From positions 19,020,350-19,084,349 of the forward strand of contig CM057234.1 of assembly GCA_029891385.1 (NCBI GenBank): a stretch of 64,000 bases of DNA, given 5' to 3'. The notes under the pieces were generated by a model, which had not been told where the DNA came from, did no database searches, and saw only the letters and a list, made by a program, of their open reading frames with translations. Position 1 is the first letter of the stretch. Each line of letters begins with the position of its first letter. Positions 457-63,424 of this stretch are shown here, in pieces. A program made the translations under genes and the position numbers. The stretch is from Erythroxylum novogranatense. Taxonomy: Eukaryota > Streptophyta > Magnoliopsida > Malpighiales > Erythroxylaceae.

Positions 457-1137
457 TGTAACATCCCACCCCCTCCTGGAAGGGTAAAATAGTAAAATTA
501 GCATAGGATGAGACTAATAGGGATGTATGAGTAGTGTCCAGGTATACTGGTACTGGTGCTCAGTGAATTTGTGCACGCGAACTGTTTGGTCATGCATTCA
601 TGACATTCCCGGTAATTGGGCCTAACGGCATTTTATTGTGATTAACGTGGTTATGGGATTTGAAAAATTGTTCGAAAAGCGCTTATTAAGCGTTTTACAT
701 TTTGGGATTTATAGGATTTTTCTGGAATTTTCGGAGAAAATTTGACCGCAAAATCGTAGGTAAATGGCCTAAATGTGTTTTGTTATGAAAATGTGATTTT
801 CGTGATTGAAAAACTTTTTGAAGTGCACTGTTATGTGCTTTACAATTTTAGGGAATTTCAATAATTCTCAAAAAAATGATTTGGGGAAATTCCCGGAAAT
901 TTCCGGACTGAGAAAATTCCAACGAGCTGACTGAGTGAACTGTTTTAAACTGAAAAGGGACTGCTTGATGGCATGAGATTAGTAGATAATGATATTAGCG
1001 AATTATTCTAGAGCCATGATTAGTGTTTAAGTGGGATTAATGAGAGTTTGTGATTAAAGTAGGTTAATTAACTTGATTTTTGTCTTTTCTTATTTGAAAA
1101 TGCCAAGTGTCCTCTTCATTAAAGAAATTTGTCTCTT

Positions 1138-1143
1138 TATATA
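1138..1143 (+). promoter_or_regulatory. TATA box of LTR A1
   Basis: tttatatac lies about 680 bp into the LTR and is followed by a pyrimidine-rich leader (cacgactttcttcttgtctt) and, about 320 bp on, by a consensus donor AG|GTAAGT at 1463/1464. Position and context suit an LTR promoter. It is inferred from the motif only. Confidence 0.45.
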
Positions 1144-2099
1144 CATCATCCACGACTTTCTTCTTGTCTTCCACTTATATTCACGACTCTTCTCTTTGAA
1201 TGGATAAGAAAATTACTTTGAAAGCTAAAAAAATCTCTTCCATCCGTGAGTGCTCCTTTCTCCTTCCATCGTTGGTGTTTGTTCCTCCTTCCTCTTGTTT
1301 CCTTGCTTGCTCTTCTTCTATCCACAATCAAGACCATACTTAAGTCTTGTGAAGATGAGGATTTGTGTATGTGATGGAGTGGTATCCGTAGGTTGGTAAG
1401 TGGTAGAAAGTTGGAGGAGGGGAGCTTGGAAGCTTGAAGAATTTGAAGTTGCAATTTAATTAGGTAAGTTGTTATTTAAGGTTTGAGTTTTAAATATTGT
1501 TTTTACATGGAATTAAATGCCATGATAGTATGGGGGTAGTTAATATAAGGATTTAAAGCATGTATAAGGTTCAGGTAGGTATTAAAGTGATGATTATTAT
1601 GATTTGAAGAAAAGGGGATGAGGTTAGATGAAGATGCATTGAAGTTACTGATGTGATTTGATTTTTGAATTGAACAAGGGTAATTAATTGAGTTTTTAAT
1701 GGAGGAATTAAATGCTGTAAATTTTCAGTGTTAACCCTAATATGTGTATGACTGTATTTATATTTAATTTGTATTTATTTTGATGTCTAGTGATGTGAAA
1801 AAGGAATTAGAAGTGGGTGAACTAAGGTTAACCTTAAATCTGGAAAGTTAGAGTTGAGATTGATGTTACTGTTTTATTCATAACTTATTGTGTAGAAATG
1901 CAAATGAGGTAAGGTTAGTGGCCACTGAAACTTTGGGATGTTGGCTTTAATTTAGTGTGAACTAGGTGTTGTTGAATTTCAATGATAGAAGGGTGAAATT
2001 TTGCATGGAAAGTTACTGTTCCATTGCCTGTGAACAGTAACCGCAACCATGACATCTGAGTTTTGTTGATTTGTATGAATAAATTGAGATGGAATTAGG

Positions 2100-2950
2100 G
2101 AGAATGGTCTTCATGGAAGTTGTAGTATATTTGATTATCTTTCCATTGCTACTGATCTTGCTATTTTTAGAATTGTGTATTGGGAGATATGAATTGATTA
2201 CTAATGACTGGTTTTGAGCATTGTGGATGAAACCTAGCTTAAGTGTGATTTTGTGAGTTTACTGATTGGAGGCAATTTTAACATTTGATGTGGACTGAAT
2301 TGGTGTGAGTAAGCTTCTGAAAAGTTGTAGAGGAAGAGATTACCTTGAAAATGACATATGGTTTGTAATTTTAGAAGTCAGAATTGGGAGTTATGATTTT
2401 CAAAAGTGAACCCTACATTAGGTTATGAGTGGCTGATCATAACAGAAACTTCCATAACAGTTTTGAAATTGTTAGAGATTGAATTGGAGGTTGAGTGCTT
2501 CATGGAAATTGAAGTTTGAGATGTTATCTTTTCAGGGATATAAAGTTCTGAATTTACTGACTTGTATATAGGGAGTTATGCTTGTTGTAAGATTACTGCC
2601 CATATTGAAGGATTTCAAGGACAGTGACATTGAATGAATTAATTGACTGGTTTAGAAATAGAATTTGATTTTGGATTGTTCATGAAAGTTGTAGACCACA
2701 TTGTGGTCTTCTTGAGCATATTTATTTTGTAATTGTTGACTGAAGAGAATAAAGGTTACAGAATTTGTAATGTATTGCACGGTTTTGAGAGGTTGTGAGT
2801 AGGCAGTGGCTTTGACTGGATTTTGTCACCCTTAGGGGTGAGATTGATTTTGTGTTCTACATGAAACTTGTAGAGTTTTTTAATCTTTTCAACGACATAT
2901 GGTTTGTAATTTTCTGAAATGTGTGGGAAGAGTTATGAATGACTGAAGTT
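2100..2950 (+). repeat. Degenerate ~185-bp unit array in LTR A1
   Basis: Five related units start near 2107, 2298, 2487, 2677 and 2855. Each runs roughly: TTCATGAAAGTTGTAGA, then TTATCTTTCCA about 20 bp later, then a T-rich stretch, then GGGAGTTATG. Units are far diverged (I can align them only by these anchors). The same set occurs at the matching place in A2, C and E and, in another place, in the B LTRs. Confidence 0.6.
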
Positions 2951-2988
2951 CAGTTTGGAAAAAGAAGAAAAGGGGAGTAAGCATTTGA

Positions 2989-3160
2989 AACCTCGCCTCA
3001 TGAGGGCGCCGCCTGCAAGTGGCGAGGCTCTCGAATTCCCCTCGAGGGCGATGCCTCATGAGGCAAGGAGCTGAAAGCTCGCTCTCATGAGGGCGAGCCG
3101 TCGCCATGAGGCGAGGAAATCATAAACTCGCGAGGCGACGACTTGCCCTCGCGAGCCAAA
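2989..3160 (+). repeat. CpG-rich imperfect inverted repeats in LTR A1
   Basis: A GC-rich patch in an AT-rich LTR, built from variants of cctcatgagg, gcgag and cctcgc in both orientations. It lies between the unit array and the conserved cgtccgacgtccgattgacc phrase. A2 has its own version at 7190-7330. Confidence 0.6.
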
Positions 3161-3555
3161 AAGGGGAAAAGGAATATATATGTGATTTTTGCTTTAATTT
3201 TGGATTTCTGATTTCTTTGATGTATAACTTTTTCGTCCGACGTCCGATTGACCTGATTCTTGAGGCATCGGATGCATAGAATATTGAATTTCATTTTATG
3301 AGAAAACGGGAATTTTTAGACGAGAATTTGACGTAGCCCCTATTGACGGAACTTGTAAACACTGTTTTATTTAATTGGGGACCTATAAAGGTCCAAATTG
3401 CGCACCGTCAGCGCCTATGGATTTCTAATTTTTGATAGAATTTTTAGTATGGGAAAATATTGAATTAGGACCGGGATTGCCATGAACATGCATATCTCAT
3501 CAACATGAGCACAAATTTCATATTTAGTGACTCGTACTTTTTCTGATTCATATAG

Positions 3556-3622
3556 AGGCCCAATTGGAGCGTCGATTGACCGACGTCACAGAGGCTTTCC
3601 GGCATTAGCTCGGAAGTAATAG
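3556..3622 (+). other. Exon-like 67-nt segment in LTR A1
   Basis: Bounded on the left by a pyrimidine-rich acceptor ending tatAG and on the right by AG|GTGAGT. It reads from aggcccaattgg to cggaagtaatag. The same segment, with the same borders, is 67 nt in A2, 67 nt in C, 63 nt in E and 66 nt in D. Its role as an exon is inferred. Confidence 0.5.
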
Positions 3623-4309
3623 GTGAGTAACCTAGTTGGTTTCTCAAATTTCTGGTTGTGTACATGCTTAACGTGAATTACGTGCAAAGGTGAATTGTAT
3701 GATTTCTGGCATGTATAAAAGTGGATGATTGTATTATATGATTTTACTGTACTGAATGATACTGATATTGATAGACTGGGCTTTATAGCCATTATACTGA
3801 ACACTGCTATACTGGGCTTTATAGCCATATCGTGGATTCACTGATACACTGGGCTTTATAGCCAAACACTGTACATTTACTGCATACTGTACTGCATGCA
3901 TAATTGCATGATCAGATAATGGACGTGCCCCAAGTTGCTATTTTTACTGATAAGAGCTTCGAGCTCTCATACTGTACTGACCGGGCCACGAGCCCGAGGG
4001 GAGAAATCCCTGACGCGTCCCCACTGAACACTGACTGAGCACTTGGGCAATCTTGAATAATCGGAAAGAGTCACATATGCATTGCATTTGCACAAATGAC
4101 CGATACGTGACATATACCGCTTTCATAATGGTATGAATTATCGTGAATGGTTTTCATTCTTATCGACATTGTTATTGGCCATTTATTGGTAATTGATGAT
4201 TTACGGATCGCATCAGACGCCATGGGCGTAATGCATGATTTGAGTGAACCATCGATGATGGTTTTCACCGAGTTCGCAAAACTCACCCAAAATTTGCATC
4301 TATTTTCAG
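3623..4309 (+). other. Intron-like segment in LTR A1 with hairpins
   Basis: The 687-bp segment starts GTGAGTAACCTAG and ends tattttCAG|G. It contains three copies of actgggctttatagcca (3775, 3811, 3848; period 36-37 bp), the short inverted repeats gagcttcgagctc (about 3956) and gggccacgagccc (about 3982), and a hairpin pair at 4247-4284 just before the acceptor. Splicing is inferred from donor and acceptor quality and from repetition in other LTRs. Confidence 0.5.
4247..4284 (+). other. Paired hairpins before the acceptor in LTR A1
   Basis: First hairpin: aaccatc-gat-gatggtt, a perfect 7-bp stem with a 3-nt loop (4247-4263). Second: gagtt...aactc (4270-4284), followed by acccaaaatttgcatctattttcagg. 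The pair recurs in A2, C, D and E. Confidence 0.65.
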
Positions 4310-4722
4310 GTCTCAAGAATACCCCGTTGACACGGAGTATATCTATCGTAGCGAGTAAAGGTTAGAGGTCGGGATCGGTTAGGTTCGCATTAGTGTTTTA
4401 GTAAATTGTATTCCATAAATCTTTGTATAACAAGGCTTTATATTTTTACTGAGCCATTGTGGTATTAATGTTTTACTGCATTGACTGATTGTAATTATTA
4501 CTGGATGACTGTAATAACTGAAACGGGTTTATCTTGAATATAGATTTTATTTACTTACTGTGTTTGCCGTGTGAACGCGGAGTTAATGGCTCCAAAAAGA
4601 AAAAAATAAAAAGTGTGTACTGAATTTTAAATCGACTGATGTAGTACGTCACTCTCGTGGGACGCGGACTCGGATATCACCAACAATATCGGGTTCGGGT
4701 CTTACGGGAGTGGGGTGTTACA

Positions 4723-5639: not shown

Positions 5640-8600
5640 TGTAACACCATCTCCGTAAGACCCGAACCCGATATCGTTGGTGATATCCGAGTCCGTGTCC
5701 CACGAGAGTAGCGTACTACATCAGTCGATTTAAACTTTAGTATCCTTTTTTTTCCTTTTTGTAGCCATTAACTCCACGTTCACACGGCAAACACAAGTAA
5801 GTAAATAAAATCCGTGTTTAATATACACGATTTGATTATTACGGTCATCCAAAGAATAAGTACAATCACCAATGCAATAAAACATTAATACCACAAGGGC
5901 TCAAGAAAATACAATGCCTTGATAGCGGTGATTGCGGAATACATTTTACTAAGACACTAATGCGATAACGAACCGATCCCGACCTCTACCTTTACTCGAC
6001 TACAAGAGACATACTCCGTGTCAACCGGGTATTCTTCAGACCTGAAAAATAGATGCAAATTTTGGGTGAGTTTTGCGAACTCGGTGAGAAACCATCATCG
6101 ATGGTTCACTCAAATCATGCATTACGCCCATGGCGTCTGACCGATAAATCATCAATTACCAATAAATGGCCAATAACAATGTCGAAGAATGAAAACCATT
6201 CACGAGAATTCATACCATTATGAAAGCAAGATATGTCACGTAGCAGGTCATTTGTGCAAATGCAATGCATATGTGACTCTTTCCGATTATTCAATTGTGC
6301 CCAAGTGCTCATCGGTGTTCGATGGGGACGCGTCTGTGATTTCTCCCTCGGGCTCGTGGCGGCCAAGACAAAGATGAGAGCTCAAGCTCTTATCAAGAAA
6401 ATAGCAACTTGGGGCACGCCCATTATCGATCATGCAATTATGCATGCAATGCGATTTAGTAACTATGCGAGATTTGGCTATAAAGCCCGGTGTATCAAGA
6501 ATCCACAATATGGCTATAAAGCCCAAATGTATCGATCATCCACAATATGGCTATAAAAGCAAGTGTTCAAGATGGTAGCTATAAAGCTCAAGATATTGGT
6601 ATCGGTGTCATTCAAGACAAGAAACCATTAAACATGCAATCATCCACTTTTATACATGCCAGAAATCATACAATTCATCTTTGCACGTAATTCACGTTGA
6701 GCATGTAAACAACCAGAAATTTGAGAAACCAACTAGGTTACTCACCTATTGCTTCCGAGCTAATGCCGAAAAGCCTCTGTGACGTCGGTCAATCGACGCT
6801 CCAATTGGACCTCTATATGAATCAGAAAAAGTACGAGTCACTAAATATGAAATTTGTGCTCATGTTGATGAGATATGCATGTTCATGGCAATCCGGTCCT
6901 AATTCAATATTTTCCCATACTAAAATTCTATCAAAATTAGAAATCCATAAGCGCCGACGGCAGCAATTCGGACCTCTATAGGTCCCCAATTAAATAAAAC
7001 AGTGTTTACAAGTTCCGTCAATAGGGCTACGTCAAATTCCGCCTAAAATTCCGTTTTCTCAGAAAATGAAATTAAATATTCAACGAATCCGATGCCTCGA
7101 ATCAGGTCAATCGGACGTCGGACGGAAAGAAATTGACAAAAGAACAAACGGACCATTTAATACAAAAAAAAATCAAAAACGAAGATCGTCCATGCGCTGC
7201 CTCATGGGCGAGGCGCCCGCCCTCGCGAGGCTGATTTACCTCGTTTAAATCGCGAGGGCGAGGCGTCGCCTCATGACCGTCCGTTAATCTCGCCCTCGCA
7301 TGAGGCAAGATGTCGCCCTCGAGACGCGAGTTTCCTATACCGCTTTGCCCTTTTTTCAAATTTCAATCCCAATTTCCAACTACTCTAATTCTTAGCACAC
7401 AAATCAGAAAATACCCACTATACCTCATTGGAAAGCTTATGAAAAGCTCTACAATTCTCAAGAAGACCATAAAATCAATTCCAACCCTAAGGGTGTCAAA
7501 TATCCCATCAAACCTTCTGCCTACTCCAATCCCATTAAAACAGAACAGTACATTTCAAATTTAATAACTCTCATTCTGTTCAGTCAAAAATTGCACAATA
7601 ACTATGTTCATCAAGATCACAATGTTATATCTAACTTTCATGAACAACTAAAAATCCAATTCCATTGTTAACTTGGTCAAATAATTCAATCAATGATGCT
7701 GTCCCTGAAATCATCCAATATGAGCAGTAATATTTCAACAAGCATAACTCTCTGTACACAAGTCAGTAAAATCAGAACTTTATATCCCTGTAAAGATAAC
7801 ATCTCAAAATTCAATTTTCATGAAGCACTCATCATCCAATTCGATCTTTAACAATTTCAAAACTGTTATGGAAACTACTGTTATGATCAGCCATTCATAA
7901 CCTAATGTAGGGTTCACTTTTGCAAAATCATAACTCCCAATTCTCACTTCTAAAAATTACACACCATATATCAATTTCAAGAAAATCTCTTCCTCTACAA
8001 CTTTTCAGAAGCTCACTCACACCAATTCAGTCCACATAAAATGTTAAAATTGCCTCCAATCCGAAAGCTCACAAATTCACACTTAAGCTAGGTTTCATCC
8101 AAAATGCTCAAAACCAGTCAATAGTAATCAGTTCATATCTCTCAATATACAACTCTAAAAATAGCACGATCAGTAGAAATGGAAAGATAATTCAATATGC
8201 TACAACTTTCATGAAGACCATTCTCCCTAATTCCATCTCAATTAATTCAGAAAAATCAACAAAGTTCATATGTTGTGGTTTCGGTTACTGTTCACAAGCA
8301 ATGGAACAGTAACTTTCCATTCAAATATTCACCCTTCTATCATTGAAATTCAACAACACCTATTTCACACTAACTTGAAGCCAACATCCCAAAGTTTAAT
8401 TGGGCACAAACCTTGCCTCATTTGCATATCTACACAATGAGTTATGATTAAAACAGTATACTAGGTCAAAACTCAATTTCCAGTTTTACTTCACCAATTC
8501 ACTTCCTATCATACCAATTCAATTCCTCCTACCATAGGCATCTCATTTTAACACAAAATCAGTCCCTATACCATGCCTACATTCACTAGGAATGACTACC

Positions 8601-12800: not shown

Positions 12801-13383
12801 CACATTATACATCATTGGGAAACTATGGAAGTCCTCTATAACATTTAAGAATGCCATTTGATCCAATTCAAACCACAACAGTCCAGAAATTGCCTCAAAA
12901 CACAACATATACAATCCTACACTTAGATCATTTTTCAAAACCAAAGCAAAATACACTTAACTTTCAAAGATCATAACTTTCAATCCCGATATTGAAAAAT
13001 AACATACTTTATGGCTACGAAAGGCTCTCAATATAAGCTACAATTTTCATTAAGATCATTTTCTCAAAACGTGCCTAAATCAAAAATTCAACTCTCAAGT
13101 AAAACTTTCTATCTTCAAAAGTCAACTTTCTTAATTTCTTCAAAATATAACACTTTCACTAATCATTTCTTGCTTTTCAACTTCCATTTCAATCAACTAA
13201 TTCATTTTAACTTTCATAACTCATACAACTCTACTCAAATTTCAAAGTCATCAAAATCAATCACTTCATTTCTCATCAATCTCCTTTAAGCATAATAACA
13301 TCTATAACACAATTTATATCCGAAAATACTCATTGAATTCATTTTAATATTTCTAATTTCCACCGAAAGTTCGGGGTCCAACA
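9819..13383 (-). repeat. Truncated LTR of family B (B1)
   Basis: On the minus strand it starts TGTTGGACCCCGAAC at 13383 and runs to 9819, where A2 cuts it; by comparison with B3 about 0.7 kb of its far end is missing. Five ~190-bp units are anchored by complements of TCATAACTTTTGA at about 12195, 12376, 12557, 12765 and 12968. A TATA-like tatatataagg sits near 11430, a GTAAG donor at 11201/11202, a GTGGGC donor at 10706/10707 and a CAG acceptor at 10062-10064. No protein frame is credible. Confidence 0.75.
10062..10706 (-). other. Intron-like segment in LTR B1
   Basis: Minus-strand start GTGGGCACC after atgag, end cattcccatccaCAG|G (645 bp). Just before the acceptor is a hairpin gagct-ata-agctc followed by acccccc, the B-family counterpart of the A-family hairpin. 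Confidence 0.45.
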
Positions 13384-13415
13384 CTTAGTACTCTCTAGAA
13401 AGCCGTAAAAGCCAC
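13384..13415 (-). pseudogene. 32-bp fragment of L1 LINE endonuclease between two B LTRs
   Basis: On the minus strand the bases after the gtggc target duplication read, in frame with the end of the LINE piece at 20946, residues FYGFLESTK. With the preceding EWRLSG this gives the usual L1 endonuclease phrase WRLTGFYG. The fragment therefore belongs to the LINE whose remaining pieces lie at 20946-27506. It is separated from them by the 7.5-kb B element. Confidence 0.8.
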
Positions 13416-16400
13416 TATTGGATCCCGATCTTTTAGTGGAATTTAGAAATATTAAATTTATGAAATGAGTGTTTTTGTATATGTATTGTGTTATAGATGC
13501 TTTTGTGCTTTAAGGAAGTTGATGAGAAAAGAATTGATTGGTTTTGATGACTTTGATATTTGAGTAGAATTGTATGGATTATGAAAGTTATAGTGAATAA
13601 TTTGTTTTAAATGGAAATTGAAAAGCAACAAAAAAAATAATAAAAGTGTTAGATTTTGGAGAATTGAAAATCTGAAATTTTGAGGATGAATAGTAGCAGA
13701 AAGTGGCAACTTTGATCTGAAACTTTGTGAATTTTTCTAGGTTGATTTAGGCAGAATTTGATAAAATAATCTTTGTGAAAATTGTAGCTTCTATTGAAAG
13801 CTTTCTATCTCCTTAAAGTATGACATTTTTTGATATCGGGATTGAAAGTTATGATCTTTCAAAGTTAAGGATATTTTGCTTTGTTTTTAAAAATGCTCAT
13901 AAGTGTAGATTTGTGTGTATTGTGTTTTGATGAAAATTCTGGACTGATGTAGTTTGAATTTGTTAGCCCCATTTTTTTTAAAAAAATAAGCATGATTAGA
14001 TTAATTGAGTAAGTTATGTTAGTATTAATTGAGTTGACATTAATTAGCATGTAATAGCATTAAAGAGTTAGGTGGTGAGTTAATGAGATTAAATGTGTTA
14101 GTTGGGCCTTAATGAGGTAGGAAAGGAAAAGAGAATAAGTTGGGCTTAAAGGATCAATGGGCTTAAGTAGTTAAAGAGAAAATAAGAAGGAAAGAAGGAA
14201 GAGAGTTGGGCTTTAGGCCTATGGGCTTAAGTTATTAAGTAAGTAGTATAAAAAGAGAATGAAAGAAGTGAGTTAGTAGGAGAAGGAGAGGGAGTTACGA
14301 AAATTTAGAGGAAGAGAGGAGAGAATTCGTGGAAGGAGAAAGAAGAAGAAGAAAAAGAAAGAGACTTGGCTAGGTCTTGAGATTCCAAGAGATCAAGTGA
14401 GAGTTTGAAGAAAGTTCAAGAAGGAAAAGTGTAGAGGAAGAGCTAAGCTACACATTGAACCAAGAAACCCTTGGGTTGAGTCAAGAACCAATGTAAGTCA
14501 TGATTTCAAGTGTTAGTTTTTAGTTGGGTTATGGTGTAGAAAGTTTAGAAATGAAGTGGGTTTAGTGATTTTTAAGTTAATTTCATGAAAGAGGTTATGT
14601 AGATTTTTAATTGAAGTTATGCTGAAATGGGTTTTTGTTTCTCTTGAAGTAGAGCAAGAGAGAGGAGAAGAGCAAGGAGAAGAGCACTCCTAAGCAAGGA
14701 TTAAGCAAGATATAAGGTGGGTTTCATTTTTATCTTTATGCTAGTAAGTTTTAAATACTATCTCAACTAATGAAATTAATGTTTTCAACTACCTTGGGAT
14801 GAGCATTGATTGAGTTTTGATTGTGTATAATTTGATTTATGATTGCCATTATGTGAGAGTTTGAACAGTATATGACATTGCTTGATATTGCTTGACAAGT
14901 TCGTAAATTGAATGAGCATGAATATTAGTGAAATCATGAAATGTGAGTTAAGCATGAAATACATTTTTTCAAGAATCAGCTATTTGGATGCATGAAAAAT
15001 CCATTTTCAGAAATCAGCCAGTGGATAAAAAAAGTTCAGATTTTGATGCATGAATTCGTGTTATGTGGGTACTTAAGTCCACCCAACAGAGTCACGTGCA
15101 CGTTGACCATAGATAAAGCCACTACCGCCCGATTGTGGCATAGGATGTTCCTTTTGGACTCCTCGGTGCGACTACACTCGTGTAGTTAAATGGATTATCA
15201 TGGACTTATTTTACCAAACCAGCAGCTATGTGTTTATGTGTTAGCATGTATTTGCAAGAATGATAAATGCATGAATCATGAAAGTTATGTTTTTAGCTTG
15301 ATGAATTTATGAAATGCAAAGTTGTATGATTGTTTGATGAGAAAATTGCTAACAGTATGGATAATGAATAGATTCAGCTTATTTACATAAATATAAACAT
15401 GTTACCCACGAGCGAAAGCTCACCCCCTCCAATCCCGTCCCATCTCCAGGTGAGGAACACGAGATCGACCAGCGAGCTTAAAGGCATTACTCCAGAAATG
15501 ATGATTTTGTATTTCAAGTTAATTTTGTAAATCAATGCTTTAGATGCATTTTAGGCAAATGATGTTTTTGCAAGTTTGTATTTTGGATTTGAAGTAGTGG
15601 CTTAAAATGCCCTCTAAAGCCTTGTAATAACTCATATTTTTCATATGAAAGCAAGAATGTTAAGTTCTAATGTATTTGGTGAAATCCATGCATGTTTTTA
15701 AAACAATTGCATCATTGTATAACTTGGATATGATTAGAATGTTAGGAGTGCGGTTGTTGCCTTGAATTGCATTTAGAGATACTTTTGGGATTGAATTATG
15801 TTGAATGAGGTTGGATATTGAGTTTTATGCAGGTGGTGGAGCTAGGACTGAAGTTGGTTAGTTGCATTTTCAAGGGAAGTGCTGTCAAATTTTCCTAAAA
15901 TTTGACAGAACTTCGCTTCAGTTTTAGACCCTCTTAGGGCTTGATTTAGATCGGGAAGTCTTCGTGAAGATTGTAGTAGAAGTTCATAACTTTCTAAGGG
16001 TGTATCATTTGTCTCATTTGGACTTAGGGTTTAAAATTTATGAGGTTAAGAACACATTCAGTCACTGCTCAGTTAGCTATATTACTGTTACATTGGTCTT
16101 TAATGAGCAGTTTCCTTTGAGTGGCTTTTTACCTTGATTAATGATGAAATTAACATTTGCATCCTTCATGAGAGTTGTAGAGAATCTTATTATCTTTCCA
16201 TAGAGGTATAGTATGCACATATTGAAGCTAGGAATAAGAAGTTATGAGTTTGGAAAGGTGATAGTTGCAAGTGGTTTTGAAGTTGGATGAAGATTTGAAG
16301 TTTTGGAAAATTGCGTGTCCGTTAAACGGACATCCTCGGGTGTAAAAACACACCTCACCCTGCCCATGTCCGTTAAACGGAACGGACATTTATGAACCAT

Positions 16401-17105: not shown

Positions 17106-20100
17106 GAATTGGAGTAAATGGTCTACATGAAAGTGATAGAGAAATTGTATAGCTTTACAATGATGTATAATATGTTATTTTTTATTGTGGAAATTGAAAG
17201 ATGTGAAATTGTGAAGATTGGATGTGATATAGGATGACACATTTTTGGGCAGAAACTTTGATTGAGAAATTGACCTAGTTAGAGGTTGCAATTGCCTTTA
17301 AGTTCTCTTGAAAGTTTTAGGTTATGTTTTTATCTTTCTAGTGATGTAAAGTATGGAATTTTTGGACCATGGAATGTGAAGTTATGATTTTTAGAAGTTG
17401 TGATACTGTTTAGGGAGACTTAAATTGGACAGAATCTTTGAGTAGAATTTTAACCCCTTTAGAGATGGAATTGGTTTTTAAGTCCTGCATGGAAATTGTA
17501 TAGCTTTCTTTTATCTTTCCATTGATACCAAATTTGAAAAATTTGGAGTTCTGAGTCATAAGTTATGAATTTTAGAAGTTGGAAGGTCGTCCTAGCGAGC
17601 GGTCATGCTCGGTCGTCCTGGCAACCGACCCGCTCGATCGCTCCGGCTCAGTCGCCCTAGCGAGCAACCTGCTCGGTCGCCCTGGCAAGCGACCCGCTCG
17701 CGAGCGCCTCGCCAGCTCGAGAGTGCGAGCTCCGATTTGGAATTTTTCCTGACCGATCTCTATCCATTCTTTTGGCCTTAACTTTTTCGTCTGACCTCTG
17801 ATCGACCTGATTTTTGAAGCGTTGGATTCCTAAGACATCCCTATATCTGTACATGAAAAATTGTAGATTTTTTTAGATTAAATTAAGGATGATTGATTTA
17901 GTCAAAGTGAGTTGGGAAAGTTTCTAAACATGGTTCAGTATTTTAGTAAATTCTTAGTCTGTGAAGATCCAATTGTGTTGATTCTTGTTGAAAAATAAAC
18001 TAGAGACATGGGGCTACAAGTAATATGAAGGCATTGAATTTCAATTTAGCCCTTAAGATTTTCAATTTCAGAATTGAAGTTGGGTTTAATGTTCAATCTT
18101 GGATTAGTAAGAGCTGAAAGTATTTTGGCCATAACTTTTGTTCTAGTCATCCAAACGAGGTGATTCTTGATTTGGATTAAACTAGAAAAATAGGAATACA
18201 AATGTTCTGAAGGAAGTGAGTTTCAATTTTGTCTTTAATAATGCCAATTTTTGGATGGAAGTAAAACGCAGGAAAATATTTTAACATAAGAATAATCTGA
18301 AATTTTTGGAGTATAACTTTTGGAGTAGTGAACTAAATTAAATGATTTTGGTGTCATTATGAAATTATGACAATGAGGAACATTTCTCTAGAAGGAAGTT
18401 TTAGCAAATTCCTTCAAATTGATGGTTAGAAAAATGTCCTAATGTAAGCATGAATTAAAATGAATTTTAGGGGCAAACTTGGAAGAACACTTAAGGTTTT
18501 AAGTTATAAGGCATATATGTAAGAGCATAATGGTCTTTTTGCATTCATTAAATGCAAGAAGAGTGGGATGTCGTTTAAGAAGAGGAGAAGCACGAATTTG
18601 TTTAAGTTAGAAAGAAATGAAAGAAGAAAGAAGAGAGAAGAGGGAGAGCTTTCGGTGGAAAGAAAGGAGAAGAAGAAAAATATGCTAGGTTTCGATTTTT
18701 ATGGGTTTTCAAGAAAGATTTTAGAGATGCTCCAAGAGGGAAAAAGATGGAAGAAGATGAGAGCTCCAATATGAGCCAAGAAATTTTGAAATTGGAGAAG
18801 ATTTAAGGTAAGAGAAGATTTTGATCTTTGAATTTTTAAAGGGATTTTGGTTTAGATAGCTTAAGAATGTTATGGGTTTGTGTTTTCTAAAGTTAATTTT
18901 GGTGATTATAACTTATGTGATGTTTAATTTTGGATGATTATGAAATAGGGATTTTGTCATGAATTAGGGAATTTAAGTGAGGCAATGGAGGAAGAGAGGC
19001 TTTGATCAAGTATTAAGCATGGATATGAGGTGGGTACCATGTTTATAATTTGAATTATAAGCTATTTATGTGTTTTCAAAAAATCAAGAAAGCGAAATGG
19101 TTTTCAAATTGTTGTTTTCGAATGATGAAATTTAATGTTTTCACATGGTTTTAAATAATTTGATTATGTGCTAAAATGTTTTTCAAATGTTTTGAGAAAT
19201 TGTTACAATGGCTAAATCCATTGTTTTGAATAATTTGATAAAATTGATGCAATTGAATGATTGTTTGGTTGATTCAAAATTGTTGCTAAAATGTTGCATT
19301 CCTGGTTTATGAATGGTTGAGAATTTCCATGTGAATTTGGATGATGAATGTGCAATGTGAATGGAAATATATTTGGATATGATATGTATATGAAAACCAA
19401 GTTTCGAAATATGCCTTCGGGCAGTCCGATTTTTAAGTGTGAATTGTCTGTTATGTAGATTTAGTTAGGTCCCATAAGAAGGTCAAGTGCACTTGTCTAG
19501 GCTTCGCCCGCCTGCCCGCTAGTGGCATTGGAGCTCCGTTAAAGACTCCCATAAGTTCACGACTACACCGGACCGCTATGCGGGAAGGTGTAGTACATTC
19601 TGTTCACGGCTGCACAGGATTGCTATGCGGGAATGTGCAGTACGTTCTGTTTCTAGACCGACCCAAACCAAAAATTGTGATGTGTTATGTGCTTATGTGT
19701 GTTATAATGTGTTGCATTCACGTTTTGAAATTATTCATGAATTGTGAAAAAGTTGAGAATTTTTAGAAATGAGCAATTGAGGTTTTCAACCGTGAAATTT
19801 TTGAAATTGGTTATGAATGATTTGAAAAGTCAAAAAGTTTGAGAAATAAGCATTTTGCCAAATTTCTATTATGAAATTTCCATAAAATGGCAAAAGTTTT
19901 GAAAAATATGTTTTTGCTTATTTTTCGATTTATAAACATGTTATCCATGAGCTGTAAAGCTCACCCCCTCTTTCATCCCCATCTCCAGGTATCGAGCAGG
20001 AGATCGGATGAAAGAAAGTCAAGGTATCTGTTCGATTTTGTATATCTTGTATTTTGTGTAATTTGGATTTTTGGTATTGGTATTGTATATGGCTTGGAAT

Positions 20101-24183: not shown

Positions 24184-24195
24184 ATATATATATAT
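24184..24195 (+). promoter_or_regulatory. TATA-like run in LTR E
   Basis: A tatatatatata run about 430 bp before the GTGAGT donor. The C LTR has the same run at the same place (about 34022-34034, minus). It could be a second promoter or simply an AT-rich run. Confidence 0.35.
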
Positions 24196-24630
24196 TTAGA
24201 TATTAATTGTTGAGTTTTGGTTTCTTTTGTCAATTTCTTTTCCGTCCGACGTCCGATTGACCTGATTCTTGAGGCATCGGATTAGTGAAATATTGAATTT
24301 CATTTTATGAGAAATTGGAAATTTTGAGACGGGAAATTGACGTAGCCCCGGAAATTGTTCTATGGTCCTTTGTTTTATTTATTTTGGACCGATCGGGGTC
24401 CGAATTGAGTCTTGTCGATGGCTATAGTTTTCTAATTTTGATGGAATTTTATGATGGGAAAATTTGGATTTAGGGCGAAATCCCATGAACATGCATTATA
24501 CACTTACATGTGCATTATATTAGTTGGATTGGATAATTAGTGATCGATTTCTCTCTGTTTGTTATAGAGGCACATTTGGGCGTCGATCTACCGACGCTAT
24601 GAAACTTCCAGATGTTAGCTCGAAGTACAG

Positions 24631-25559
24631 GTGAGTAACCTAGTTGGTTCCTCAACCTTATGTGTTTAAGATTTTGCAATTATGCCATGTGGAGATAATG
24701 GAGGGTTTATGTGTGTTTGATTTTGATTGATTTCGGACCATAGGTGTCTGAAATATTTGGAATGAGATAACGAAGTGCTACTTGTGTGTAACTGTGTGTG
24801 AATGTTTATATTGGAGATCTCGGACCAAAGGTCCGAGGAAATGGGAAATTGATAAATGTTTATATTGGAGATCTCGGACCAAAGGTCCGAGGAAATGAGA
24901 AATTTATATTGAAGTGTTAATTGTCTGTTTCAATACATTGGGTGTGACTTTTAAATGCGATATGGTATGATGCAATAAATTGGAAAAATATATGATTGAA
25001 ATACCGGACCGAAGGTCCGAAGAAATAGGAAATGGCATTGAATGTAAGTGATAGAAATAACTGTAAATGGAAATTGGAACATATGCATTCATGCATAAGG
25101 ACATGATCAGATAAAGGCAATTGTGACCGGAGCAGCCACTGTATCAGGGCATATCACGCCTAACGTATATGAGAGCTTTCAGCTCAACGCACAGGACCTC
25201 AGGTCCAACGTATTGAGCCTCAGCTCGATGTATTAGGCTTCAAGCCCAATGTTTGAGCCACGGCTCAACGCAATGTGTAAATTCTTCGACAGCCAAAGCA
25301 CGGCCACAACAACGTAATGGAAATGGAAAGGGTCTCATGTGCATTGCATATATGGTATGATTGAATTTGGATTATATGAAAGGTGATCGCCTTACATTTG
25401 TGAAATGTAATGGTATGTATTATTTGAGATTACATTTGTGAATCGTGATCGTATGTGATATTTGGTAAGTCGATTGAACATGCATGAATTGAGTGAACCA
25501 TCGATGATGGTTTTCACCGAGTTCGCAAAACTCACCCAAAATTTGCATCTATTTTTCAG
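24631..25559 (+). other. Intron-like segment in LTR E, rich in short hairpins
   Basis: 929 bp from acag|GTGAGT to atttttCAG|G. It holds three or more ggacc-aaa-ggtcc hairpins (about 24829, 24880, 25006) in a partly tandem 60-bp unit, then a run of gagctttcagctc, ggacctcaggtcc, gagcctcagctc, gggcttcaagccc and gagccacggctc variants (25170-25270), and the conserved hairpin pair before the acceptor (about 25495-25535). Confidence 0.55.
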
Positions 25560-32621: not shown

Positions 32622-32626
32622 TAACT

Positions 32627-35600
32627 TGTAGCGCTCCCTTACCATAGAGTACCCACCGGAACGCCCGTAGGTCATTCCGGTACATATCCTACGATAAAAG
32701 ATCACTACTGACAACTACCACTAAACTCCTCATGGCATCACAATCATAAAGCAGTACGAAGAAATTGACAACTTTTTAAAAACCAAATTGGATTTCATTT
32801 CATTCACTCAAAATTCAGAAATTTACAAACTGTCAGTATTTTCAGTCTGTACATGTTTCAAAGCACTGTACACTAAGTACCATACAGTAATGTACAAAGA
32901 ACAGATCTAACTATAAGTCTCCAAAAGAAAGCCCAGCTGATCGACCTTTGAGCCATCGCCTCTCTCGCCAATCCACAAGACACGCTCTCTACGGTCCGAG
33001 GGAGCTATCTGTCCACACATAAGCCTGAAAAATAGATTGCAATTTTGGATGAGTTTGCGAACTCAATGAGAAACCATCATCGATGGTTCTCCCAATTCAT
33101 GCATCACATAAGCATGATACAGTATGCATCCAGTAATCATACAATTACAATGCTAATACAATCACATAATAGGCATACAACACGATACGCAGAAAGCGAA
33201 CGATTCTGATCATATTACAAGATACCTACGGTCGGTACCATGTCAAATATTCAGTCCAAGATGCAATGCACATGTGACTCTTTTCGATTTATTACGAGAT
33301 TGTGACCGAGTGCTTTAGAAGTGTTCGAGAGTCGATGAGCGCGTCTAGGAGAATTATCTCCTTGAGCTCTAGCTCGCGATGTCGATGTCGATGGCGACTC
33401 GGTTTACACTTATTCTTTATCAGTTTATGCATCTGTGCATGAGTGCACATGTTCAATTGAACAGTTACATAACAGTCTAGAATTTCCAATGAGCAGTTAT
33501 TTACAGTCAATATCACGTAATCCAAGTAATCCTCGTAGGGCAAATAAATCACAGTAAACACGTAGATTGAGGTAACCACCTAGGTTACTCACCTATTACT
33601 TCCGAGCTAATGCCGGGAAGTTTTCGCCCCGTCGGTCGAACGACGTTCCACTTGGGCCTCTATAAGAATCAGAGAAAGAACGAGTCACTAAATATGCAAT
33701 TTGTACACATGTAGGTGAAATATGCATGTTCATGAATTTACGACCCTAATCTCATTTTTTTTCCATCATAAAAATCCGTCTAAAAAAATTAGAAACCTAT
33801 TGGCGCTGACGGTTCTCAATTCGGACCTCTATAGATCCCCAATTAAACAAAACAGTGATTAAACAGACCTTTACCCGGACCCACGTCAATTTCCCGTCCA
33901 AAAATCCCGAATCTCTCAGAATATGAAATTCAACATTATATGAATCCGATGCCTCAAGAATAAGGTCAATCGGACGTCGGACGGAAAAACTATTCACGAA
34001 AGAAACCAAAATTCAACAATTAATATATATATATAGCCCTTATTCCTTCTCTTTTTCCTGTTTTCCAACCAAAATTCAATCTATCATATCTCTTTCTACA
34101 CATTTGAAAAAAATGCAAACTATACCTTGTTGGAAAGATAATGAAACCCTCTACAAGTTTCATGAAGACCCCAACAAGCAATTTTACCCATAAGGGTGTT
34201 AACAATTGAGTCAAAGCCACTGTCTACTCAAAACCTATCAAAACAGTGCAGTACATTGCAAATTCATTAACTTTCTGATTCTTCAGTCAACAATTACACA
34301 ATAAATAAGGCAGTAAGATCACAATGTTAGCTACAAATTTTATGAACAACCTAAAATCAGATTCACGTGCTAACTATGTCAAACAATTCACCAAAGCATC
34401 AGCCCTCAGAATTTTCCCAATCTGAACAGCACATTTCACAACAGTATATCTCTTAGGAAAAATGTCACAAAATTCACTACCTTATATCCCTGAAAAGATA
34501 AGATCTCAAACTTCAATTTTCATGAAGAACTCAACATCCAATTCGATCTCTAACAATTTCAAAACAGTTATGCAAGTTTCTGCCATGATCAGCAATTCAC
34601 AACCTAATGCAGGTTCAGTCTTTGCAAATTCATTTCTCTCAAATCTGACAACCGAAAATTACATGTCATATATCATTCTCAAGATAATTTCTTCCAGTAC
34701 AACTTTTCAGAAGATCACTCACACCAATTCAGTTCACATAAATTACTAAAATTGCTCCAAATCATAATGTGCACCAAATTTGACATTCCAGCTAGGTTTC
34801 ATTCAATGCATGAAAACAGTCAATAGTCATCAGTCCATAACTCCTACTATACATATCGAAAAATTGCAAAATCAGTGGCATTGGAAAGATAACTTAATAG
34901 AATTCAACTTTCATTTAGTCCATTTGTTCTAATTCCTTCTCAATTAATTTATAAAAATTAGCAAAACTCTAGGTTATGGTTTCGGGTACTATTCATTCCA
35001 GTCAATAGCAGTAACTTTCCAAGCCATATTGCAACCTATTAAAGCTAAAATTGGACAACACCTATTTCACACAAAAATGTAGCCAACATCCCAAAGTTTA
35101 ATTGGGCACAAACCACACCTCATTTACTCACCTAACAATTAGTTATGATCAAAACATTGCAATAGGGTCAAAATGCATTTTCCAACTTTCAACTTCAACC
35201 TAACTCCTATCACTTCTAATATCAATAACACATCACCAAGCATCCATTTACACCTCTAATTCAACCACAAAATCATCACAACATTTACTTATATAATTAC
35301 ACAAAAGTTGGCAGCACCCACATACACAACTTCCATATTTCATTTCCATTCATTAAAAATCATAAACATCATTAACAACATTACTTTCACATTCTTTAAC
35401 TACTCTATCCACTTCCCTCACACAAGCATGCATTAAACTCATTCAAACCTACAACTTTCATGATAAAATAAATGCTTAAAGGATCTCCATGAATGCTTCT
35501 AACTACCATGGCATTCAATACCTAATGAAAACATCATTGAAAAACTTAAAAGAAACCTTACCTATCAAGCTTCCAATCTTTACTTGCTTCTTAACTACCC

Positions 35601-41047: not shown

Positions 41048-44000
41048 TGTAGCGCCCCCTTACTATAGAGTACCCACTGGAACGCCCGTAGGTCATTCCG
41101 GTACATATCCTACAATAAGAGACCACTACTGACAACTACCACTAAACTCCTCATGGCATCACAATCATAAAGCAATACGAAGAAATTGAAAACTTTTTAA
41201 AAACCAAATTGGATTTTATTTCATTCACTCAAAATTCAGAAATTTACAAACTGTCAGTATTTTCAGTCTGTACATGTTCCAAAGCAGTGTACACTAAGTA
41301 CCATACAGTAATGTACAAAGAACAGATATAACTATAAGTCTCCAAAAGAAAGCCCAACTGACCGACCTTTGAGCCATCGCCTCTCTCGCCAATTCATAGT
41401 ACACGGCTCTACAGTCCTGAGGGAGCTATCTGTCTACACTTAAGCCTGAAAAATAGATTGCAATTTTGGATGAGTTTGCGAACTCAATGAGAAACCATCA
41501 TCGATGGTTCTCCCAATTCATGCATCACATAAGCATGATACAGTATGCATCCAAAGAATCATACAATTACAATGCTAATACAATCACGATCCACGATCCA
41601 GAAATGAACACGATTAAATCATATTACGGTATACATACGATCGGTACCATGTCAAATATTCATCCAAGATGCAATGCACATGTGACTCTTTTCCAGCTTT
41701 ATTACAAGATTGTGACCGAGTGCTTTAGCGGTGTTCGAAGAGTCGATAGATGCGTCTGGGAGAATTATCTCCTTCGAGCTCTAGGCTTGCGATGTCGATG
41801 TCGATGGCGACTTCGGTTTACACTTATTCTTTATCGGTTTATGCATCTGCATGAGTGCACATGTTCAATTGAACAGTTACATAACAGTCTAGAATTCCCA
41901 ATGAGCAGTTATTTACAGTCAATATCACGTAATCCAAGTAATCCTCGTAGGGCAAATAAATCACAGTAAACACGTAGATTGAGGTAACCACCTAGGTTAA
42001 TCATCTATTACTTCCGAGCTAATGTCGGGAAGTTTCCGCCCCGTCAGTCGAACGACGCTCCACTTGAGCTTCTATAAGAATCAGCGAAAGAACGAGTCAC
42101 TAAATATGCAATTTGTGCACATGTAGGTGAAATATGCATGTTCATGAATTTCCGCCCCTAATCTCATTTTTTTTCCATCATAAAAATCCGTCTAAAAAAA
42201 TTAGAAACCTATTGGCGCTGACGGTGCGCAATTCGGACCTCTATAGATCCCCAATTAAACAAAACAGTGATTAAACAGACCTTTACCCGGACCTACGTCA
42301 ATTTCCCGTCCAAAAATCCCGAATCTCTCAGAATATGAAATTCAACATTCTATGAATCCGATGCCTCAAGAATAAGGTCAATCGGACGTCGGACGGAAAA
42401 ACTATTAACGAAAGAAACCAAAATTCAACAATTAATATATATATATAGCCCTTATTCCTTCTCTTTTTCCTGTTTTCCAACCAAAATTCAATCTATCATA
42501 TCTCTTTCTACACATTTTAGAAAAATGCAAACTATACCTTGTTGGAAAGATAATGAAACCCTCTACAAGTTTCATGAAGACCCCAACAAGCAATTTTACC
42601 CATAAGGGTGTTAACAATTTAGTCAAAGCCACTGCCTACTCAAAACCTATCAAAACAGTGCAGTACATTGCAAATTCATTAACTTTCTGATTCTTCAGTC
42701 AAAAATTACACAATAAATAAGGCAGTAAGATCACAATGTTAGCTACAACTTTTATGAACAACCCAAAATCAGATTCACGTGCTAACTATGTCAAACAATT
42801 CACCAAAGCATCAGCCCTCAGAATTTTCCCAATCTGAACAGCACATTTCACAACAGTATATCTCTTAGGAAAAATGTCACAAAATTCACTACCTTATATC
42901 CCTGAAAAGATAAGATCTCAAACTTCAATTTTCATGAAGAACTCAACATCCAATTCGATCTCTAACAATTTCAAAACTGTTATGCAAGTTTCTGCCATGA
43001 TCAGCAATTCACAACCTAATGCAGGTTCAGTTTTTGCAAATTCATTTCTCTCAAATCTGACAACCGAAAATTACATGGCATATATCATTCTCAAGATAAT
43101 TTCTTCCACTACAACTTTCCAGAAGATCACTCACACCAATTCAGTTCACATAAATTACTAAAATTGCTCCAAATCATAATGTGCACCAAATTTGACATTC
43201 CAGCTAGGTTTCATTCAATGCATGAAAACAGTCAATAGTCATCAGTCCATAACTCCTACTATACATATCGAAAAATTGCAAAATCAGTGGAATTGGAAAG
43301 ATAACTTAATAGGCTTCAACTTTCATTTAGTCCATTTGTTCTAATTCCTTCTCAATTAATTTATAAAAATTAGCAAAACTCTAGGTTATGGTTTCGGGTA
43401 CTATTCATTCCAGTCAATAGCAGTAACTTTCCAAGCCATATTGCAACCTCTTAAAGCTAAAATTGGACAACACCTATTTCACACACAAATGTAGCCAACA
43501 TCCCAAAGTTTAATGATCAAAACATTGCAATAGGGTCAAAATGCATTTTCCAGCTTTCAACTTCAACCTAACTCTAGTCTTACTACAGGCGAGGGCCAAG
43601 AGGCACCCGCCGGGGCCCATGATTGAGAGGGGGCCCCGCCCCTCTCCACTTACACAATATCAAATGGCTATCTAATCTTCGTGTTAAAATCTTATAAGGT
43701 CTCTCCTCTGCAATCTACTATGCGCCAACATGAGGATCACAACATTAATGATGCTAACGCTATAACGTAATTAAATGATAACGTTATAATTTAAAACTTA
43801 TAAGTCAATATTGTGATACTCATATTTATAAATAATTTTGAAATATTTAAATGTACTTTTATCTTTTAATTTTGTTGTTGTCATCAATATATGTATTTAA
43901 AATACTCCATCTCAAAATTAGCGATAAAAGATTTTACGATTATGTCTTTTGAGTTACGAGTATAATTTAAAGGTAAAGTTTATAATTTTTAATGTATTTT

Positions 44001-60994: not shown

Positions 60995-61924
60995 TGTAAC
61001 ACCCCGTCACCGATGGGAATGTTATATTAGTAAATTGGGACGGGATAGGGTTTTACCGCACATTATCGACTGAGTATTCTTTTGGCCTCTAATTGTAGAG
61101 GAATGAGTCCTTTGGTATATGCACATATAGGTACATGCATTCATGACATTTTCCCGACTTTTGATTTGTGAATGTGATAGGAATTGTGATTTGTGAGATA
61201 GTTGGGATTTATGGGGAATTATAGAATATTTGGGTTTAAATGATTGAATTGGAACTGTTTAGAGTAATTGCCAATTGATAGTGATTCTTCGAAATTTTTC
61301 TGGAAAATTCGGGAGAAAAAGTCCGGACCGAAAATCCTCCGAGTAATGGGTCGATTGACTATATAGTGCTAGAATAATGGGTATATGGCAATGGAAAATT
61401 TAGATATATGATACTGGAATTTAATATGGTGAGTCATTGAAATTTGGAGATGAATTAGACCGGAAATAAAAGTGAAAGAGAAAGAGGTTTGAGGATAAAG
61501 ACTAGAGGCTTAAGTGATTAACCTATAAATGCTTTAGGTTTCAAATTGAAGAAGGAAAAAAAAAAATCCTCTTTTCCTTCCTCCTAGGGCATGACAGTTT
61601 CGTTTCTCCTCCTTCCTTGATGATTTGCGACTTTTCCTTCGAGATTTCGATTGCTTGTTTCTCCCTACGCGAAGCCTTGTTTGATGCTTAGCGAGGATGA
61701 GTTTACCGTGTGTGTTAGAGAAAGGGGAAGAGTTTGAGAGATTTTTGGAAATTCCAGAGATCGGAGGATTTAAGCTCGATGTGGTAAGTTTATGGGTTTA
61801 ATGTTGTTGATTTGTTAGCTTAAGGCATTCATAGGGTTTATTGTGTAAGTTTGGATAGTGTCTAGTGATTTATTACTGGTTTTAGAGAGAGAAAGAGGGA
61901 AAGAAAATCGGAGAAGATGAACCA

Positions 61925-62140
61925 GGGCCGCACGTCGCGACGAGAAAAATATTTAGACGTCGCGACGAGGAAACGCTTAGACGTTGCGGCGAGCGTAAAA
62001 TATTGACGCCGCAACGAGCCTCTCCCTCACGTCGCGGCGAGCCCGAAGGAAACGTTCGCCGTGGCGAGCGTTGTTTCACGCCGCGACGAACGACCCTTAC
62101 ATCGCGGCGAAAGGTCCTTGGTCGCGGCGAGGGACAGTTT
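61925..62140 (+). repeat. CpG-rich tandem patch in LTR D
   Basis: About ten variants of acgtcgcgacgag / gccgcgacgaa at irregular spacing of 15-30 bp. It is the densest CpG cluster in the window. Confidence 0.8.
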
Positions 62141-62779
62141 CCTGAAATGAAATGATTTAGTTTTTGGGGCATAATTAATTGTGTAGACCTCCAATTGAGG
62201 TGATGTTTGATTCGTAATGATCTAGAGAATGAGGTCTACAAATGAGGAAAAGAATGAAGGTTTGAAATTAAATTTGAGAATCTCGATTTGTGAAAGAAAG
62301 TTAAGAATTTGATAGTAATTGCATCCTTGGGATTATTCTTTGTTAATTGGGTTTTAATGTGAGACTTTGAAAATAAATCCAATGCTAGTGGGAATTTTAG
62401 AAATTGTGCATAGCAAATTTGATCTAGAGATTAGTGATATTGCTTTTGAGGTCATACCCTAGCGAGTATGACATGATAATTGACTGGATATTAGAATTGA
62501 AATTGGGGAGTTCTGTATCATGTTATTGAATTGGAAATGAGTCATTAGTGATCGATTAAGTGGAAAAATAGAATTCGTCTAAGAAAGTGGAATATGGGAA
62601 ATAGCATCGGGAAAATCATGAATAGGCATCGTACATCTGTTATTGAGAGCATGTGCATCATCGAATTATAAGTAACTGTGCATTAGTAATTGGAAACTAT
62701 TTGATTGTTATAGAGGCTCCGATGGATCGAGGTTCCACGGATATTGCTGGGACTTCCAGGCTGTAGCTCGGAAGTACAG

Positions 62780-63424
62780 GTGAGTAACCTAGTTAGTTCC
62801 TCAAATTCCTGATTGTCTAAATGCTCTATGTGAATTACTTGTCAATGTGAATTGCATGATTACTGAAATGTATATGATCGAATTGCATGCTTCTACTGTA
62901 TGGGATTGGACTACTGCAAGACATTGGGAATTGAAATACTGGGCTTTTATAGCCATATCACTGAATTACTGAACACTGCATTACATGCATAAAGGCATGA
63001 TCAGATAATGAACGTTGTGACCCAAGTCGCTAATATCACTGAATGAACCTCGAGCTATAACACTGTACTGACCGGGCCTTGAGTCCGAGGGGAGAAATCA
63101 CACGCGGCCCACTGCTGAATACTAAATCTTGTTGGCGCTTGGGCACAACACTGAATAACTAAAAAAGAGTCACATATGCATTGTATACACATGACTGATT
63201 GATTTGTGACACTTACTGAATTATGTGATGGCATGAGAGATTGCAAATTGTTACATGCTACTGTAAATTGTTGTATAATACTGTAATTTGTTATATGATA
63301 CTGTTAATTGAATATTACTGTGCCATGCTATACGCAATCTGCGTAATGAATGATTTGAGTGAACCATCGATGATGGTTTCTCATTGAGTTTGCAAACTCA
63401 CCCAACATTGCAATTATTTTTCAG
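62780..63424 (+). other. Intron-like segment in LTR D
   Basis: 645 bp, acag|GTGAGTAACCTAG to attatttttCAG|G. It contains one actgggcttttatagcca unit (about 62937), aaccatc-gat-gatggtt and the perfect 14-bp palindrome gagtttgcaaactc followed by acccaacattg just before the acceptor (about 63360-63405). Confidence 0.55.

Follow-up and report, generated by a model that had tools for sequence, protein, structure and literature searches.

An LTR retrotransposon rebuilds its LTRs from RNA in every round of replication, so that an intron lying inside an LTR should vanish once spliced RNA has been copied. The locus analysed here, a 64,000-nt stretch of the Erythroxylum novogranatense genome (the window; G000:C11:19020350-19084349), contains a nest of LTR retrotransposons and raises the question of whether such introns exist and how they would be kept. 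Using the plant's own assembly (1,300,216,121 bases in 267 contigs), we conclude with considerable confidence that, in families A, B and D at least, LTRs start a transcript upstream of spliceosomal introns located wholly inside the LTR, and that spliced RNA is sometimes copied back into DNA, unspliced RNA being probably the usual template. Plant LTR elements with spliced RNA are already known; introns wholly inside the LTR would be the new aspect.

The original prediction was that nearly every long LTR of the window carries two donors and two acceptors delimiting a short internal exon between two introns, and all seven site sets lie where it had placed them. The LTRs and the parts of their leaders are the following, in window coordinates:

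457-4722, plus strand: LTR A1, TGTAACA...TGTTACA, the 3' LTR of a Ty3/gypsy-type element
1170..1463, plus strand: A1 exon 1, its putative start some 30 nt downstream of a TATA-like string near 1138, its end at donor 1
1464..3555, plus strand: A1 intron 1, 2,092 nt, GTAAGT...ATATAG, precisely absent in genomic copy L001
3556..3622, plus strand: A1 exon 2, 67 nt
3623..4309, plus strand: predicted A1 intron 2, 687 nt, GTGAGT...TTTTCAG; the homologous D intron is absent in genomic copy L084
4243..4285, plus strand: conserved hairpin pair within A1 intron 2, directly 5' of acceptor 2
4310..4722, plus strand: A1 exon 3 to the LTR end
9818-5640, minus strand: LTR A2, a 5' LTR, donor 1 after 8875, acceptor 2 ending at 6042
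6812-6746, minus strand: A2 exon 2, 67 nt
from 36382, minus strand: C 3' LTR, donor 1 at 35561, acceptor 2 at 33025
33593..33659, minus strand: predicted C 3' LTR exon 2, 67 nt
from 45486, minus strand: C 5' LTR, counterpart of exon 2 and its flanks at 41986..42435, donor 2 mutated
21848-25921, plus strand: LTR E, donor 1 at 22631, acceptor 2 at 25559
24568..24630, plus strand: predicted E exon 2, 63 nt
60995-63916, plus strand: LTR D
61784..62713, plus strand: D intron 1, 930 nt, absent in L084-L090
62714..62779, plus strand: D exon 2, 66 nt
62780..63424, plus strand: D intron 2, 645 nt, precisely absent in L084
14493..14652, plus strand: predicted B2 intron 1, 160 nt
18808..18967, plus strand: B3 intron 1, 160 nt, absent in 13 B-family loci
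18968..19029, plus strand: B3 exon 2, 62 nt
19030..19988, plus strand: predicted B3 intron 2, whose acceptor and hairpin GAGC..GCTC are conserved among B1-B3

LTRs of the A1, A2, C, E and D set start with TGTAACA and finish with TGTTACA or GCTACA; B1 (minus strand), B2 and B3 (both plus strand) form a second kind. The TG...CA ends expected of Ty3/gypsy elements are present, and a string resembling a primer site, TGGTATC(A)GAGC, follows A2, D and the C 5' LTR (one base off in the last) as well as the genomic copies L001, L019, L025 and L042-L044. The flanks of LTR E carry no matching target-site duplication. Between its LTRs the C element encodes a gypsy-type protease (RVP_2, 4.7e-37) and reverse transcriptase (RVT_1, 3.7e-32), which identify it as Ty3/gypsy; its RNase H match (RT_RNaseH_2, 1e-4) is weak and below its cut-off. 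From the motifs of the LTR ends, primer-binding site and purine tract we take the elements to be Tekay/Del-type chromoviruses. The A-type internal region, read in one copy (L012, 2661-6116, about 3.46 kb), is non-coding as in a LARD: no sense ORF reaches 60 aa, and the best tblastn match to the C internal pieces (E 0.12) is not a real one. Neighbouring A1-type exon 1 copies lie 7.6-7.9 kb apart, a spacing that fits an internal region of this size.

As had been proposed, the internal segment is nearly constant and its flanking introns vary. Exon 2 measures 67, 67, 67, 63, 66, 64 and 62 nt in A1, A2, C 3', E, D, B2 and B3, against 2092, 2062, 1902, 1937, 930, 160 and 160 nt for intron 1 and 687, 704, 568, 929, 645, 733 and 959 nt for intron 2. 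In A1, A2, E and D, both introns are contained entirely within the boundaries of the LTR. Two LTRs depart from the full set of sites: in the C 5' LTR donor 2 is mutated, and in B1 a donor 1 and an acceptor 2 are in place. The suggestion that a TATA box precedes the first donor in several LTRs held in part: a TATA-like string occurs at most 330 nt upstream of donor 1 in A1, C 3', D, B2 and, weakly, B3, but the nearest one in E is 417 nt away and A2 has none within 500 nt. T content is 20% in exon 2 and 33-36% in introns. With the assumed exon 1 lengths, ATG triplets number 13-19 per kb in exons and 30-39 in introns; compared with shuffled sequence they are hardly depleted in exons (26 against 31.9, s.d. 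5.1; 6 against 7.6; 20 against 23.4) and enriched in introns (280 against 234; 203 against 107). These counts are weak support for the exon-intron structure, through the intron excess more than through any lack in exons.

Conservation is concentrated at the sites. Counting both strands, the window contains the string AGGTGAGT seven times, compared with 1.8 on average (maximum 4) in 40 first-order Markov resamples, and five of the seven copies are predicted donor 2 sites, a recurrence that is not due to chance. Among the ten pairs formed by A1, A2, C 3', E and D, identity exceeds that of the intron 2 middle in all ten for the first 30 nt of intron 2 and in eight for its last 70 nt (the one tied and the one lower pair both involve E, where the alignment slips); it exceeds that of the intron 1 middle in eight pairs for the last 60 nt of intron 1 and in seven for exon 2. 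Between A1 and A2 the last 60 nt of intron 1 and both ends of intron 2 (30 nt at the donor side, 70 nt at the acceptor side) are 100% identical and exon 2 is 95% identical, compared with 73% and 83% for the two intron middles. In exon 1 the subfamilies share little similarity (0-84% over 150 nt).

In a larger alignment of 31 rows (30 distinct LTRs, since L002, like L005, is A1 itself), 20-column mean identity is 0.94-0.98 at 3556-3655, 0.95-0.99 at 4236-4295 and 0.51-0.94 elsewhere; 20 of the rows (L014-L033) had been picked for their similarity to exon 2 and the adjoining 78 nt of intron 2, which means that their conservation at 3556-3700 is partly selected and that they cannot reveal loss of intron 2. 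The bin of acceptor 2 reaches 0.86 because the T-run varies in length, and AG follows the T-run in 31/31 rows. Of 22 LTRs, 17 have GGTAAG in the column homologous to donor 1; L021 and L027 differ yet retain GT, L022 and L033 have a donor-like string nearby, and the C 5' LTR aligns to other sequence there. That the sites might be no better conserved than neighbouring LTR sequence had been named in advance as the finding that would speak against the prediction. The pairwise comparison points the other way, as do the donor 1 columns, whose mean identity is 0.90 against 0.43 upstream and 0.64 downstream (21 LTRs).

Splicing itself should leave a trace in DNA. In the known scheme of reverse transcription, an RNA with a spliced leader, once copied, gives rise to two new LTRs that both lack the intron. 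We therefore joined the predicted exons of A1, A2, E, B3 and D and searched the genome for copies of spliced RNA, considering about 40 of the best candidates per search. The exon 1-exon 2 junction was spanned by one of the 40 best rows for A1 (100% over 169 nt), four of 40 for A2 (the fourth, with 7 nt of exon 1 matched, was confirmed separately), 13 of 43 for B3 and seven of 40 for D, one of which continues into exon 3; none of the 40 best rows for E spans any junction. The B count leaves out rows C6:75940882 and C12:27656574 (query 1-90). The joined probes thus yielded 24 loci without intron 1 alone and one without both introns. When the first 40 A-type exon 2 places were read upstream, intron 1 was present in 35, absent in four (one of them the A1-probe match) and replaced by a large deletion in one, and an exact pattern joining one exon 1 ending to exon 2 occurs at four places genome-wide, one of them new (L070). 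Together, 29 loci lack intron 1, one of which lacks both introns: nine in A (L001, L019, L023, L025, L042, L043, L044, L069, L070), 13 in B (L071-L083) and, in D, six without intron 1 only (L085-L090) plus L084. The predicted deletion of LTR sequence by splicing is therefore seen in three families, and it bears out the claim that these are real spliced introns.

How exact these losses are is clearest in A. The L001 LTR halves are 92.0% and 89.6% identical to A1 overall, and there is not one mismatch at 1046-1463 and 3556-3671, the gap between these being intron 1. Its exon 1 is identical over 350/350 nt to the intron-bearing A1 (L005), L003, L006 and L007, all of which read GTAAGT at the junction, and its element is flanked by a 5-bp target-site duplication, TCATT. 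The exon 1 of L043 is 99.7% identical over 350 nt to that of L029, which reads GTAAGTG there. The exon 1 types of L001 and L043 did not match each other in the same search, which implies at least two separate losses of intron 1. L019, L023 and L044 show 73-79% similarity to their closest intron-bearing exon 1, and L025 and L042 have no such counterpart within the compared set. In four of six A elements checked both LTRs lack intron 1, and in these the first kilobase of the 3' LTR is 94-96% identical to that of the 5' LTR; as to the remaining partner LTRs, that of L019 is rearranged, that of L023 was not found and that of L001 is truncated. In B, exon 1 runs straight into the start of B3 exon 2 at three of the 13 loci (L075, L081, L082), and the others have variant letters at the start of exon 2 or a less clear alignment. 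Ten of the 13 B loci and most D loci are only 80-91% like their probe, which makes the junction base and the direction of change less certain there. A tree of 28 LTR 3' parts, whose reading is complicated by apparent swapping of LTR parts between subfamilies, does not group the seven intron-less rows as one clade and needs six changes for them; bootstrapping puts the number of changes at 5-7 but had not settled, at least three changes are forced by well-supported branches, and the pattern is indistinguishable from random scatter. Two pairs of intron-1-less matches, in B (G000:C9:66139853 and 66144191, 4.3 kb apart) and in D (G000:C10:780226 and 786075, 5.9 kb apart), may each be the two LTRs of one element.

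Loss of intron 2 is rarer. Seven A-type LTRs lacking intron 1 were aligned through intron 2, and all of them have it; the 13 B loci and L085-L090 retain its donor end. The exon 2-exon 3 junction was spanned by one of 203 rows over the five joined-exon probes, and a joined pattern of A exon 2 and exon 3, which is blind to an exon 3 starting with TCT, occurs nowhere in the genome. The single case, L084, is a D-type solo LTR of 1,166 nt with the 5-bp target-site duplication AATGT on both flanks. Its exon 2 ends at 1548 and its exon 3 starts at 1549, corresponding to D sites 62779 and 63425, and both introns are gone. Intron 2 is therefore real at least in D, and it is lost more rarely than intron 1. 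These DNA copies show that intron 1 of A, B and D and intron 2 of D can be removed at the predicted sites; removal of a GT-AG segment from RNA, the property of a spliceosomal intron, is recorded in them indirectly, as genomic copies of spliced RNA. In C and E the splicing of both introns, and in A and B that of the second, is predicted from conservation.

Could the same copies have arisen without splicing? Template switching, or microhomology repair between short AG-containing repeats, would be a simple route, as AG is common to donor and acceptor, reverse transcriptases do jump between templates, and L024 has an ordinary large deletion in the same LTR region. We regard this as very improbable, given that the same GT-AG boundaries, predicted beforehand, are found again in each of three LTR families and next to different types of exon 1, that L084 has two losses at predicted sites within one LTR, and that the exon 1 of L043 and L019 ends in TG, so that a single base overlaps with the end of the intron. 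The chances seem just as slim for the reverse polarity, in which intron-less LTRs are ancestral and the GT-AG segments were inserted later in the manner of introners. The likeness of only 80-91% between probe and intron-less copies in B and D does make polarity uncertain there, and such copies are common in B (13 of 43 rows); yet intron 1 can be aligned among A, E and C (63-73%) and partly with D, the 160-nt intron is shared by B2 and B3 with a counterpart in B1, L001 and L043 adjoin near-identical intron-bearing siblings in sequence, and the tree scatters the intron-less LTRs. Even under such gain, the segments would be introns.

That the conserved blocks are packaging, dimerisation or promoter elements merely resembling splice sites is, in our judgement, less probable still. 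Conservation extends 20-30 nt beyond donor 2 and covers the hairpin pair, which exceeds what splicing needs. Against this stand the 29 loci that have lost intron 1 at the predicted junction, the exactness being visible where a sibling or an identical exon 2 start exists, and the loss of intron 2 in L084. As the sole explanation such elements are contradicted by L001, L043 and L084; they may act alongside splicing.

We thus favour an LTR-borne spliced leader, which may work as follows. Transcription would start upstream of donor 1, giving an RNA whose leader consists of exon 1, intron 1, exon 2 (62-67 nt), intron 2 and exon 3. Unspliced RNA would be the main template for reverse transcription, and spliced RNA would at times be reverse-transcribed and inserted, leaving LTRs without intron 1 or without both introns. 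The original prediction held that unspliced RNA must serve as the genome; it is probably the usual template, since 35 of 40 A-type places retain intron 1 and 9,299 places in the genome carry the exon 2/donor 2 string with at most three mismatches (none for the reversed control), but it is not the only one. The retention of this junction at 9,299 places, set against the minority of A-type places read that lack intron 1, illustrates that the form of the template RNA, spliced or unspliced, can be measured from genome sequence alone. Splicing may supply an alternative RNA with a short leader, useful for export and translation in coding relatives. To judge from the one A-type internal region read, an mRNA role of the spliced form cannot be the whole reason for the introns: the L012 internal region is non-coding, so the spliced RNA of that copy is not needed as a gag-pol mRNA. 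Sites in non-coding copies may be kept because they help transcription or export, through a role in packaging, or by renewal through recombination with coding relatives.

Why intron 2 is kept more often than intron 1 may be explained by less ready splicing or, more speculatively, by help from the hairpin pair in selecting RNA for packaging or copying. Just upstream of acceptor 2, the two adjacent hairpins show almost no variation across A, C, D and E, and B has a counterpart of the second. Their folding energies correspond to z scores of -0.7 to -2.8. Hairpin 1 shows too little variation to be informative about pairing; hairpin 2 has GAGT/ACTC in A-type and GAGC/GCTC in B-type LTRs, one compensatory change only. 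A scan of viral contigs with the hairpin block gave no matches. Lying inside intron 2, the hairpins mark unspliced RNA, and since L084 exists without them they are not strictly required. The idea that intron 2 can never be lost because an essential packaging signal lies there is weakened by this copy, which has neither introns nor hairpins, and we keep it as a preference only. In retroviruses, packaging signals lie downstream of the major splice donor. By analogy, though we put it forward as a doubtful possibility, the two-intron leader could be an old RNA switch shared by long-LTR plant retrotransposons, in which the exon 2/donor 2 block and the hairpins label unspliced RNA as the form to be copied. 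Intron 2, unlike intron 1, would then nearly always be kept, and non-coding members would keep the switch because it governs which RNA is copied.

Among known systems, the closest are other plant LTR retrotransposons with both spliced and full-length RNA. In the available parts of the reports on BARE1 of barley and EVD/Copia93 of Arabidopsis, a spliced gag RNA occurs beside full-length RNA, and BARE1 has separate RNA pools for translation and reverse transcription (PMC3735527, PMC12786077). Their intron is in gag-pol (104 nt in BARE1) and not in the LTR, and according to the BARE paper, attempts to amplify DNA copies of its spliced RNA from genomic DNA did not succeed. Transcripts of the plant Ty3/gypsy elements Ogre, CRR and Bagy2 are likewise partly spliced (PMC3735527, PMC6317226), as are those of sunflower copies with introns in or between coding parts (PMC7730604, in excerpt). 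The introns of Ogre, CRR and Bagy2 lie between or within coding regions, with none described in an LTR in the passages concerned; those of A1, A2, E and D are not within or between coding ORFs, unlike introns of the BARE1/Ogre type.

The splice donor of bovine leukaemia virus (BLV) lies close to its LTR. Like the LTRs described here, BLV and other retroviruses and the pararetroviruses CaMV and RTBV have a donor early in the viral RNA, full-length RNA is their genome, and CaMV has a packaging signal in its leader, according to the sections seen of PMC1839114 and PMC5902531. The acceptors of these viruses lie in or before downstream coding regions, and the same sections describe no pair of full introns within one LTR.

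Very long LTRs have also been described in Retrosat2 of rice (Del/Tekay-type), whose LTR is more than 3.2 kb long, with several polyadenylation motifs and an R domain proposed to measure 2,023 bp; in the text of that paper that could be searched, 'intron' is absent and 'splic' appears in a reference only (PMC3485330). Full-text literature searches, which cover few subscription journals, returned no natural LTR-borne intron and do not prove novelty. Of two text matches for 'intron in the LTR', that in PMC5542766 concerns, in the matching excerpt, a vector name, LTR1.20, and we took the other, judged by its title and abstract, to be the bacterial group II intron named LtrB. LTR introns may partly explain the 3-4 kb length of some plant LTRs, and the annotation of R regions, and of gene models close to such LTRs, may be wrong.

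Several further features were observed. The A1-type core promoter and exon 1 (1057-1456; L003, L004, L008, L009) are 99-100% identical, and elsewhere the LTRs differ by 2-36% per 100 nt; identity drops after donor 1, in loci picked by 1364-1463. Exon 1/promoter types and 3' LTR parts occur in free combination across subfamilies (L014-L033, L043, L044), as if swapped by template switching. GC-rich inverted units like CTCATGAGG lie near the 3' end of intron 1 (A1 2990-3150, A2 7190-7330). A-type LTRs can exceed 4 kb although the L012 internal region is about 3.46 kb (LARD-like), and A1 of the window comes third in a series of copies spaced 7.6 kb apart (G000:C11:19006498, 19014077, 19021713). 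To judge from the spacing of exon 1 matches, such LTR-internal-LTR-internal-LTR tandem arrays seem recurrent, occurring also on C212 and at C2:111.2 Mb, C11:62.9 Mb and C11:5.9 Mb. The B1 and B2 LTRs meet head to head at 12865-13960 in an imperfect palindrome of 1.1 kb (76%). A copia-type element (28440-29574 and 47339-48460, an LTR pair 96.5% identical, with 29265-32688) appears to be split by the gypsy element C, and pieces of a host gene of the EDS1 family lie at 54679-56350 (Lipase_3 1.3e-15, EDS1_EP 1.6e-71).
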